A stretch of 64,000 nucleotides of DNA from Polaribacter porphyrae (lineage in GTDB: Bacteria; Bacteroidota; Bacteroidia; Flavobacteriales; Flavobacteriaceae): contig NZ_MSCN01000001.1 of assembly GCF_002954685.1 (NCBI RefSeq), forward strand, positions 3,346,961 through 3,410,960. The letters are read 5' to 3'. How positions within the stretch are numbered: position 1 is the stretch's first letter; each line of letters opens with the position of its first letter. The translations under genes were made by a program, and so were the position numbers. Below, one piece after another: positions 47,911 through 51,315 of the stretch. The notes below the pieces were generated by a model, which was not told the origin of the DNA, did no database searches, and saw only the letters and a list, made by a program, of their open reading frames with translations.

Positions 47911-50900
47911 TTATATTTTCTGCAAAATACTCAAAGCTGTTTTTACAGAATCAATTTTGATAAATGTAGTTAATAAACGTAAACCATTTTTAGTTTGTTT
48001 CTCTTTCATTACACAACTTTTTCCATTTTGCTGTACATATTTTAACATTCTAGAAAAAGCTTCTGTTTGATAAAATTTGCTTTGTTGGTCAGCAACAAAA
48101 TAACCCAACATTCTTTTTTGTTTTAGAATAATTTTTTCTAAACCTAATTCTTTTGCCAACCATTTTATTCTAACAGAATCTAGTAAATCTTCTACTTGTG
48201 TTGGGAATTCTCCAAACCTGTCAATAATTTCAGTTTCAAAAATTTTGAGTTCTTCTTCTGTTTTTAAAGTTCCTAGTTTGTTGTATAAAGCCAATCTTTC
48301 TGTAATTGAATTGATATAATCATCAGGAAATAAAATTTCAAAATCAGTATCAATAGTAACTTCTTTTACAAAATCTTTTGGTTTGGAGTTATCTGTTGGA
48401 TATAAATCTTTAAACTCATTTTCTTTCAGCTCTTCAATAGCTTCTTGTAATATTTTTTGATAGGTATCAAAACCAATATCATTGATAAAACCACTTTGTT
48501 CACCACCTAATAAATCTCCAGCACCACGAATTTCTAAATCTTTCATGGCAATGTTAATTCCACTACCTAAATCAGAAAATAAAACCAATGCTTCTAATCG
48601 TTTTCTGGCATCATCAGTCATCATATGATAAGGTGGCGTTATAAAATAACAAAACGCTTTTTTGTTACTTCTTCCAACTCTTCCTCGCATTTGGTGTAAA
48701 TCACTTAAACCAAAATTATTCGCATTATTAATGAAGATTGTGTTTGCATTTGGCACATCCAATCCACTTTCTACAATAGTTGTAGAAACTAAAACATCAA
48801 AATCGCCATTCATAAAACCGAGCATTATTTGTTCTAGTTTTTTACCTTCCATTTGTCCATGACCAATTCCTATTTTTGCTGATGGAACCAATCTTTGCAA
48901 CAAACCAGCAACTTCTTTAATATTCTCAATTCTATTATGAATAAAGAAAACTTGTCCACCTCTAGAAACTTCGTAAGAAATTGCATCACGAATGGTTTCT
49001 TCAGAAAAACGAATTACATTACTCTCAATTGGATGTCTGTTTGGTGGAGGTGTTTTGATTACTGATAAATCTCTAGCAGCCATTAAACTAAACTGTAACG
49101 TTCTTGGAATTGGAGTAGCAGTTAATGTTAAAGTGTCAACATTTTCTTTTAGGGTTTTTAATTTGTCTTTTACAGCGACCCCAAATTTTTGTTCTTCATC
49201 AATTATTAAAAGCCCTAAATCTTTAAATTGTATTCGTTGGTTTGTTAATTGATGTGTACCAATAATAATGTCTACAGAACCATCATTTACACCATTAATC
49301 GCAGCAGTTTTTTGTTTTGCAGTTCTAAATCTGTTTAAATAATCAATGGTAACAGGAAAATCTTTTAAACGTTCTGTAAAAGTTTTATAATGCTGAAAAG
49401 CTAGAATAGTGGTAGGTACTAAAATTGCGACTTGTTTGCCATTATCTACAGCTTTAAAGGCGGCTCTTACAGCCACTTCTGTTTTACCAAAACCAACATC
49501 GCCACAAACCAATCTGTCCATTGGTTGTTCTTTTTCCATATCTGTTTTTACAGCTTGTGTTGCAGTAAATTGATCTGGAGTATCTTCATACATAAAACTA
49601 CCTTCAAGTTCATGTTGCATGTGCGTGTCTGGACCAAAAGCAAATCCTTTTTGTAGTTTACGTTTGGCATACAATTTAATCAAGTTAAAAGCAATATGTT
49701 TAACTCGAGCTTTGGTTTTTTGTTTAATTTTTTTCCAAGCTCCAGAGCCTAATTTGTATATTTTAGGAGCTTTCCCATCCTTTCCATTAAATTTAGAAAT
49801 CTTGTGAAGTGAGTGAATGCTTACATATAAAATATCACGTTCTCCATAAACTAATTTAATCGCTTCCTGTTTTTTACCTTGAACATCAATTTTTTGCAAA
49901 CCACCAAATTTTCCAATTCCATGATCCATATGTGTTACATAATCGCCAATTTCTAGTTTATTTAATTCTTGAAGTGTAATAGCTTGCTTTTTTGCGTAGC
50001 CATTTTTTAATCGGAATTTATGATAACGTTCAAAAATTTGATGATCTGTATAACAAACTAGTCTTTGCTCAATATCTACAAAACCTTGATACAAAGGAAA
50101 AACGATAGTTTCATAATGAACCTCTTTGTCTGCATCATCAAAAATATCGTGGAAACGTTTTGCTTGCTGATCGTTTGCGCAAAAGATATAATTGGTAAAA
50201 CCTGCTTTGTGATACTCTTCTAGGTTGTCAATTAATAAGTTAAATTGCTTATTAAATGAGGGTTGAGGATTGACATTGAATTCAATGTCATGCTGAACTT
50301 GTTTCAGCATCTCATTGTCCTGCAAGGTTTCAGAAACCTTGTGGGTATTTTCATTAGACCTACTAGGTTCTGAAAACCTAGCAGGACTTAACTGAACCAG
50401 AGTAAAATCGTGCAACTGCTTTTTTATAAAAGCACCATCACAAAATAATTCTGAAGGTTTAGAATGGTTAATTTCTTTTGATAAATCTTCAAAAGCATCT
50501 TCTGCTTTTTTATAGAATTTATCTAGATTTCCAGTAAGCAAGTTGATATTTTTTACAAAAACAACAGTTTTAGAGGAAATGTACTTTAGGAAGCTTTCTC
50601 TATTTTCTTGTAAAGTTTTATTTTCTACATTAGGCATTATAGAAACTTTTTTTAGTTTCTCTTTAGACAGTTGTGTTTCTACATCAAAAGTTCTTATGCT
50701 ATCAATTTCATCACCAAAAAATTCTATTCTGTAAGGCTCATCATTAGAAAAAGAAAAAACATCTATAATTCCTCCACGAACAGAAAAATCTCCAGGTTCT
50801 GCAACAAAATCAACACGTTTAAATTTGTATTCAAAGAGAACTTCATTTACAAAATCGAGTGATAAATCTTCACCAACTGCAACTTTTAGTGTGTTTTTTT

Positions 50901-51315
50901 CGAGTTCTTTTTTAGTAACCACTTTTTCGAATAAAGCTGTTGGATAGGTTACAATTACTGCAGGTTTCTTTCTGGAATTTATCCTATTTAAAACTTCTGA
51001 ACGCAATAAAACATTCGCATTATCCGTTTCTTCAATTTGATAAGGTCTTCTGTAAGAACCAGGATAAAATAGCACATTTTTATCTCCTAAAAGTTGTTCT
51101 AAATCATTTAAATAATAAGCAGCTTCTTCTTTATCATTAAAAATTAAAAGATACGGTTTATCTGCTTTTTTAAACGTTTCAGAAATAACAAAAGACAACG
51201 AAGAACCAACCAAATTCGATATTTGAAAATGGTTTTTATCTTGTTGAAGTTGTGTAATTATCTGCGATATTAACGCAGATTTTTGATATTGATTTACAAT
51301 GTTCTGGGTACTCAA
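47911..51315 (-). CDS. mfd: transcription-repair coupling factor Mfd
   Basis: A 1134-residue protein with the full Mfd order: UvrB-like N-terminal region, RNA-polymerase-interacting domain (KLEIGDYVTHMDHGIGKFGGLQKI), RecG-like helicase (Walker A GDVGFGKTEVA near residue 608, DEEQ near 708, then QMRGRVGRSNKKAFCYF) and the C-terminal TRCF domain. It removes RNA polymerase stalled at lesions and recruits UvrA. The start is TTG at 51,315, since no in-frame ATG lies nearby upstream; a minus-strand TACATTTG -7 box is at 51,333-51,340. About 34 residues (near 309-343) are encoded by inserted palindromic repeats. Confidence 0.95.
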   Translation of the reverse strand: MSTQNIVNQYQKSALISQIITQLQQDKNHFQISNLVGSSLSFVISETFKKADKPYLLIFNDKEEAAYYLNDLEQLLGDKNVLFYPGSYRRPYQIEETDNANVLLRSEVLNRINSRKKPAVIVTYPTALFEKVVTKKELEKNTLKVAVGEDLSLDFVNEVLFEYKFKRVDFVAEPGDFSVRGGIIDVFSFSNDEPYRIEFFGDEIDSIRTFDVETQLSKEKLKKVSIMPNVENKTLQENRESFLKYISSKTVVFVKNINLLTGNLDKFYKKAEDAFEDLSKEINHSKPSELFCDGAFIKKQLHDFTLVQLSPARFSEPSRSNENTHKVSETLQDNEMLKQVQHDIEFNVNPQPSFNKQFNLLIDNLEEYHKAGFTNYIFCANDQQAKRFHDIFDDADKEVHYETIVFPLYQGFVDIEQRLVCYTDHQIFERYHKFRLKNGYAKKQAITLQELNKLEIGDYVTHMDHGIGKFGGLQKIDVQGKKQEAIKLVYGERDILYVSIHSLHKISKFNGKDGKAPKIYKLGSGAWKKIKQKTKARVKHIAFNLIKLYAKRKLQKGFAFGPDTHMQHELEGSFMYEDTPDQFTATQAVKTDMEKEQPMDRLVCGDVGFGKTEVAVRAAFKAVDNGKQVAILVPTTILAFQHYKTFTERLKDFPVTIDYLNRFRTAKQKTAAINGVNDGSVDIIIGTHQLTNQRIQFKDLGLLIIDEEQKFGVAVKDKLKTLKENVDTLTLTATPIPRTLQFSLMAARDLSVIKTPPPNRHPIESNVIRFSEETIRDAISYEVSRGGQVFFIHNRIENIKEVAGLLQRLVPSAKIGIGHGQMEGKKLEQIMLGFMNGDFDVLVSTTIVESGLDVPNANTIFINNANNFGLSDLHQMRGRVGRSNKKAFCYFITPPYHMMTDDARKRLEALVLFSDLGSGINIAMKDLEIRGAGDLLGGEQSGFINDIGFDTYQKILQEAIEELKENEFKDLYPTDNSKPKDFVKEVTIDTDFEILFPDDYINSITERLALYNKLGTLKTEEELKIFETEIIDRFGEFPTQVEDLLDSVRIKWLAKELGLEKIILKQKRMLGYFVADQQSKFYQTEAFSRMLKYVQQNGKSCVMKEKQTKNGLRLLTTFIKIDSVKTALSILQKI
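50286..50390. repeat. cluster of three palindromic repeats inserted in frame in mfd
   Basis: ATGCTGAA/TTCAGCAT with a CTTGT loop (50,290-50,310); CAAGGTTT/AAACCTTG with a CAG loop (50,323-50,341); and CTAGGTT/AACCTAG with a CTGAA loop (50,363-50,381, extended by CCT/AGG with one mismatch). Next to it, 50,271-50,290 is a perfect 20-bp palindrome that codes for part of the normal protein. The insert keeps the mfd frame. Confidence 0.85.

Follow-up and report, generated by a model that had tools for sequence, protein, structure and literature searches.

In-frame palindromic repeats of several families in one loop of Mfd across the Flavobacteriaceae

The palindromic elements of Rickettsia, RPE-1 to RPE-6 (Ogata, Claverie), are reportedly palindromes inserted in frame in genes. 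G. forsetii, one of the organisms considered below, is a flavobacterium. In the parts of Di Nocera 2013 (PMC3733652) consulted here, REPs, single or dimeric, are reported in frame within conserved genes, many of them for DNA repair, RPE-4 and RPE-6 are assigned to the CGTC superfamily, which is described as having no dedicated transposase, and G. forsetii is named as CGTC-positive. The same parts of PMC3733652 describe different REPs at about the same site in recB of two Xanthomonas species, mention REP insertions in flexible linkers or loops, and treat an effect of REPs on repair genes as speculation; its main text contains no match for mfd or for Flavobact.

Here we describe palindromic repeats read as protein within an mfd gene. 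The window, meaning the whole stretch of DNA that was analysed, is 64,000 nucleotides long, and its genome was placed in the Polaribacter-Tenacibaculum group by named relatives and by the position of the Polaribacter MAG L055, which sits in the window's 32-row clade of the mfd tree. The features are as follows.

47911..51315, minus strand: mfd, transcription-repair coupling factor, an uninterrupted open reading frame of 1134 aa
50287..50388, minus strand: palindrome-derived coding segment of 34 codons (residues 310-343), in a loop predicted to be disordered
50286..50314, plus strand: F1 element, a candidate CGTC-type REP, minus-strand translation EMLKQVQHD
50318..50347, no strand assigned: F2 element, one half of an inverted doublet, minus-strand translation THKVSETLQD
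50358..50387, no strand assigned: F2 element, other half of the inverted doublet, minus-strand translation PARFSEPSR

The encoded protein has the Pfam domains UvrB_inter, CarD_TRCF_RID, DEAD, Helicase_C and TRCF, and the presence of in-frame palindromic repeats in its gene is confirmed. A sequence-only reading of this DNA had placed such an insert here, in frame and just before PQPSFNK, and both its coordinates and its frame hold. That reading counted three different hairpin repeats; there are three hairpins (arms at 50283-50297/50303-50317, 50323-50331/50333-50341 and 50356-50369/50375-50388), but only two families, the first hairpin being F1 and the second and third, which are complementary at 77% over 30 nt with an 11-nt spacer, forming an inverted F2 pair. 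On the plus strand the F1 copy consists of a TGTC tag, an 8-bp stem, a 5-nt loop and a CTCA tail. The F2 copy at 50358-50387 carries a compensated stem change, CAAGG/CCTTG to CTAGG/CCTAG, of which no second copy was found in the other stretches of the same genome that were scanned (part of the genome). The hairpin segment has a folding energy of -46.3 kcal/mol (z -7.7) that was equalled by none of 200 shuffles, and an Rfam scan of the window gave no match at gathering scores. By chance, 0.00 copies of the F1 26-mer and 0.09 of the F2 core would be expected within the window. With an expectation of about zero, and with comparable inserts across many separate assemblies, an origin as chance palindromes or an assembly artefact is refuted and carries practically no probability.

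Both families have copies across the window genome, in agreement with the proposal that dispersed palindromes were turned into coding sequence. Exact F1 15-mers number 20 (control, 0) and F2-like palindromes 32 (control, 8). Nineteen of the 20 F1 sites were examined at their own position and the 20th lies 41 bases from one of those; two are in frame within genes (mfd and a ketosynthase gene), one makes up the C terminus of a long open frame (L037), and the remaining sites have no frame open for at least 50 codons on both sides. The inverted-doublet layout of F2 recurs in this genome at L041/L053, L042 and L049, the other copies being single. Across genomes, F1 was found in 21 of 26 (1 control match overall; the 26 of this count were partly picked for an occupied mfd) and a third family, F3, in 24 of 26 (3 control matches), the genome of L063 being left out of both counts. 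F2 was found in 23 of 58 genomes of the window's genus (3 control matches), and the F4 pattern is weakly dispersed, with any match in 5 of 11 genomes and at most 3 per strand.

Judged by its sequence features, F1 fits the published description of the CGTC superfamily. It has the terminal tag (CGTC or TGTC/CCTC) beside a hairpin: the consensus tag is cGTC in 119 and 125 copies, with the first C in fewer than 60%, and the window copy reads TGTC. Its stem, ATGCTGAA/TTCAGCAT, has 8 bp starting with AT, the third base being variable in the consensus, and its loop is CTTGT, both as described for the superfamily (stem of 8-9 bp beginning AT, loop of 4-5 nt). F1 is also dispersed, multi-copy and mostly intergenic, 17 of the 118 exact sites examined being clearly in frame within genes. 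Its unpaired tail is CTCA; most CGTC REPs have a CCA-like tail. The F2 consensus has no unpaired terminal GTAG tag; GTAG sits inside the stem, and F2 is therefore not classed as a GTAG REP.

F2 has the characters of a RAYT-associated element, namely copies flanking a RAYT gene and inverted doublets. F2 palindromes flank the RAYT part of RAYT-hemF open frames on both sides in five of six genomes, and they also lie on both sides of another RAYT (L305) and beside L308 and a broken copy (L299/L307). The RAYT-like sequence beside hemF, located via its flanking repeats, matches NCBIfam REP_Tyr_transpos with an E value of 2.5e-11 (43.6 bits against a curated cut-off of 80), and it is not among the two matches of a Pfam Y1_Tnp (PF01797) search of the window genome. 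Cross-tabulating a RAYT match (E <1e-20, hand-counted) against at least 3 F2 matches per strand in 58 genus genomes, which are related and not independent, gave 10/6/2/40 (Fisher p 8e-6). One genome (G018) has a RAYT-hemF-sized open frame and no F2 matches, and two (G006, G009) have F2 matches and no RAYT match. We infer that F2 is mobilised by RAYT.

The hemF-adjacent frames have features of their own. Six genus genomes have an open frame of 520-529 aa (L129:342-1928, minus strand, in the window genome; L285-L289) that begins RAYT-like. Five aligned RAYT-like frames (L284-L288) run on into the coproporphyrinogen oxidase HemF, and in four of the five a REP-encoded linker (e.g. NTYKVLETLQ) joins the two parts; in such a frame the two proteins may be truly fused, or HemF may start at a TTG within the REP. 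The window genome also has a 150-aa open frame (L130:1287-1736) with a strong Y1_Tnp match that resembles an IS200-type TnpA.

Between fixed anchors, the Mfd loop is 47 residues long in the window and 22-29 residues (mostly 22-24) in relatives of the genus in which no repeat is recognisable. The earlier estimate of about 34 inserted residues stands for the palindrome-derived codons but not for the net gain, which is 18-25 residues, or 22-25 against most of these relatives. Some of the mfd genes scanned for repeats were taken from among the matches listed for six seed peptides, which included MLKQVQHD and may thereby favour F1 loops. In 122 Flavobacteriaceae mfd genes, strict repeat matches were found within the loop in 19 genes and elsewhere in two (L024, L212), the loop making up 4.4% of the bases scanned. 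The count is still 16 to 2 without the three F1 genes from the MLKQVQHD search (L054, L062, L068), and reversed and complement decoy consensus sequences gave 0 and 0 matches. Besides the F2 doublet and F1 of the window (L001), the loop holds F2 alone in L002, F1 in L004, L054, L062, L068 and L189, F3 in L014, L015, L024, L063, L067, L075, L076, L082 and L217, and F4 in L057, L124 and L212, i.e., three dispersed families plus a weaker fourth across species.

The consensus sequences and thresholds were fixed after the loops had been inspected. Looser thresholds add a few matches both inside and outside the loop, and codon-shuffled genes then give 10 matches for F3 at 3 mismatches and 3 for F1 at 7; the weakest loop matches counted are F3 with 2 mismatches (L082 and L217). 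At least two pairs among the 122 genes are duplicates (L027/L056, L060/L221), and none of these genes is occupied. Genes with no readable anchor (L121, L196, L074, L122) were excluded from the strict count, L026 in addition from the tree, and two weak non-flavobacterial matches (L125, L126) from all mfd counts. For the tree, L081 and L006-L008 were labelled by eye, and L217 is in the strict count and unlabelled in the tree. The L024 and L212 genes each carry, besides the loop match, a second F3 that lies beyond the loop, 98 residues ahead of the PSFNK anchor in L024 and 48 past it in L212. The mfd match of L008 (G027) comes as two separate pieces, with a single TAG, at a distance from the loop. 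A hairpin-only scan of 101 mfd genes was dropped as main evidence for being too noisy: loop enrichment was 2.3-fold for stems of at least 7 (p 0.012) and 4.8-fold for at least 8 (p 5e-4), not significant at stem 9 (p 0.39), and no hairpin lay in the loop at 10.

An empty site had been suggested as a check, and two Lutibacter sisters, L066 (empty) and L068 (filled), provide one: they differ by a clean in-frame 27-bp F1 insert whose joint shows no more than an ambiguous AT. The idea that the segment might be conserved in distant Mfd proteins without the palindromes finds no support, as distant Mfd proteins, those of Flavobacterium among them, have a short loop and no strict repeat match. In L189, the sister of the window (support 93), the position occupied by the F2 doublet and F1 in L001 shows a decayed, oppositely oriented F1 match. 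On a tree of 121 mfd rows built without the loop, about 15 occupied/empty changes and 17 changes of family label are needed, rough counts given that 41 of 117 inner branches are poorly supported. A single ancestral insertion, inherited vertically and diversified through decay, would account for the clades that share one element (the F4 group; L014/L024). We regard it as highly improbable, given the unrelated families at the same spot, the empty sisters, the 15-17 label changes (at many weak forks) and, in particular, the L066/L068 pair.

F1 is also read in frame in other genes. The 118 sites comprise 20 from the window genome and 29 and 69 from other genomes, two exact mfd sites (in the L054 and L062 genomes) being left out, and a copy was called in frame when the frame was open for at least 67 codons on both sides in a Pfam-named or mfd gene; L134 (126/28 codons) and L035, L148, L263 and L264, near the start of an open frame, were not counted. 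The in-frame share is far below the coding share of a bacterial genome. The 17 hosts are mfd (two), ketosynthase, TrpF (two), a sortilin-like protein, a fused B12-binding/MeaB/methylmalonyl-CoA mutase (three), LeuRS, an epimerase, a glycosyltransferase, mevalonate-diphosphate decarboxylase (two), RibD, BshC and MetH. All 17 sites are read in a hydrophilic frame, LKQVQ or ELVS; the third open frame, the hydrophobic NLFQ, is used at none of them and occurs in short intergenic frames.

Two of these hosts, chosen as examples together with TrpF after being noticed, repeat the pattern of the Mfd loop, the decarboxylase for F1 only. In the fused mutase (L152, L158, L241, L340-L369), 12 of 28 readable genus genes (2 of 30 loci were unreadable and left out) have repeat matches of F1, F3-type or F4-type, every one of which begins 29-50 residues ahead of the NWE motif, the rest of the frame read being free of them; the copy in the window genome (L365) has weak F1 and F3-type matches that start 17 residues apart. 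In the decarboxylase, F1 is the sole family and occupies one and the same loop in 4 of 27 readable genes (3 of 30 left out as unreadable). The decarboxylase carriers belong to several species of the genus and one Lutibacter (L254, L269, L310, L311, L313, L325; L269 is the L310 gene). The TrpF genes of two genomes (L133, L248) carry F1 shortly after the same QLHG stretch.

The inserts could also owe their persistence to an effect on Mfd or its mRNA, such as one on repair activity or translation. The strong mRNA hairpins predicted for the segment and the many REPs reported in repair genes in the parts of PMC3733652 consulted are in line with such a role. We nevertheless consider it improbable: the strict test leaves most loops without a repeat (9 of the 54 window-genus mfd genes from a whole-genome search are occupied), the families change, and the two mfd copies are the only repair genes among the 17 in-frame F1 hosts. 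As most of these hosts are metabolic enzymes, there is little support for repair genes being specially favoured.

An AlphaFold model of Mfd residues 1-457 (37 sequences, mean pLDDT 81) predicts the loop to be disordered, with a pLDDT of 46-57 at residues 311-340 between strands at 305-310 and 342-345. In a structure comparison, the first ten rows are Mfd structures (Z 19.6-26.4) that cover most of the model, and for many UvrB structures the alignment reaches model residues 347-350, which puts the loop where the UvrB-like module ends; the original description of the site as a linker between domains is not upheld, since it is not clearly between domains.

Taken together, it is very probable that the Mfd segment consists of translated REPs that were inserted as DNA and kept where the loop tolerates them. 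RAYT-linked F2, as an inverted doublet, and CGTC-type F1 would insert as DNA into the surface-loop region of mfd, and the surviving copies would be those that keep the frame and are read in a hydrophilic one; the loops of other species would receive other REP families, and some elements would decay. Frame-keeping copies would survive owing to the flexibility of this loop and to its position between two strands where the UvrB-like module ends, and the insert is probably near-neutral for Mfd.

It was further proposed that mixed repeat families target one site. Several families do use the loop, but tolerance, which we favour over targeting, explains the data at least as well. Under targeting at the DNA level, the elements would prefer a sequence or structure of the site and a resident palindrome would draw in further families by docking, making the loop a true hotspot. 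This might explain the mixed families at one spot in the L001 mfd and again in the fused mutase of the same genome, as well as the oppositely oriented, decayed F1 of L189 at the place of the F2 doublet and F1 of its sister, and a title in the reference list of PMC3733652 presents REPs as insertion sequence targets. It appears unlikely, however, as almost no base preference is seen outside F1 in 119 copies, the L068 insert occupies a site where its sister has no repeat, and the exclusive use of hydrophilic frames at the 17 in-frame sites points to filtering at the protein level. Tolerance alone would leave the recurrence of the same few loops unexplained. That the loops of Mfd, the fused mutase and the decarboxylase are standing ports, in which a resident palindrome is preferred for landing or replacement by further REP families, is a still more doubtful suggestion; if true, mobile DNA would rewrite these loops of housekeeping proteins again and again.

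In searches of the literature on palindromic elements, intragenic Bacteroidetes REPs and palindromes in Mfd, none of the listed titles and opening lines of abstracts described this case, and peptide words (KQVQHD, ELVSES and others) found no relevant paper. Judged from the parts of PMC3733652 consulted, in-frame REPs in repair genes are already published, and what is new is that several families have repeatedly used one homologous loop. The case shows that mobile palindromes can supply a bacterial family with protein sequence again and again, in homologous loops open to comparison among many species. The long-posed question whether such repeats target genes or are only tolerated in loops can thereby be tested by comparison.

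The system described here shares with the intragenic GTAG and CGTC REPs, as portrayed in those parts of PMC3733652, short dispersed palindromes in frame in conserved genes, but here three dispersed families and a weaker fourth have used one homologous loop repeatedly in many species, and most of the in-frame F1 hosts found lie outside DNA repair. With the Rickettsia elements it shares in-frame insertion in conserved genes. The resemblance to them that was pointed out from the sequence is borne out for F1, which by description fits the superfamily holding RPE-4 and RPE-6 in the consulted parts of PMC3733652; the phylum is another one, and here F2 is linked to RAYT genes. F2 shares inverted REP doublets and the flanking of a tyrosine transposase gene with what is reported of the REPIN/RAYT systems (PMC3116915), whereas F2 has no unpaired GTAG tag, one copy is read within mfd, and other copies lie between RAYT and hemF in one open frame.
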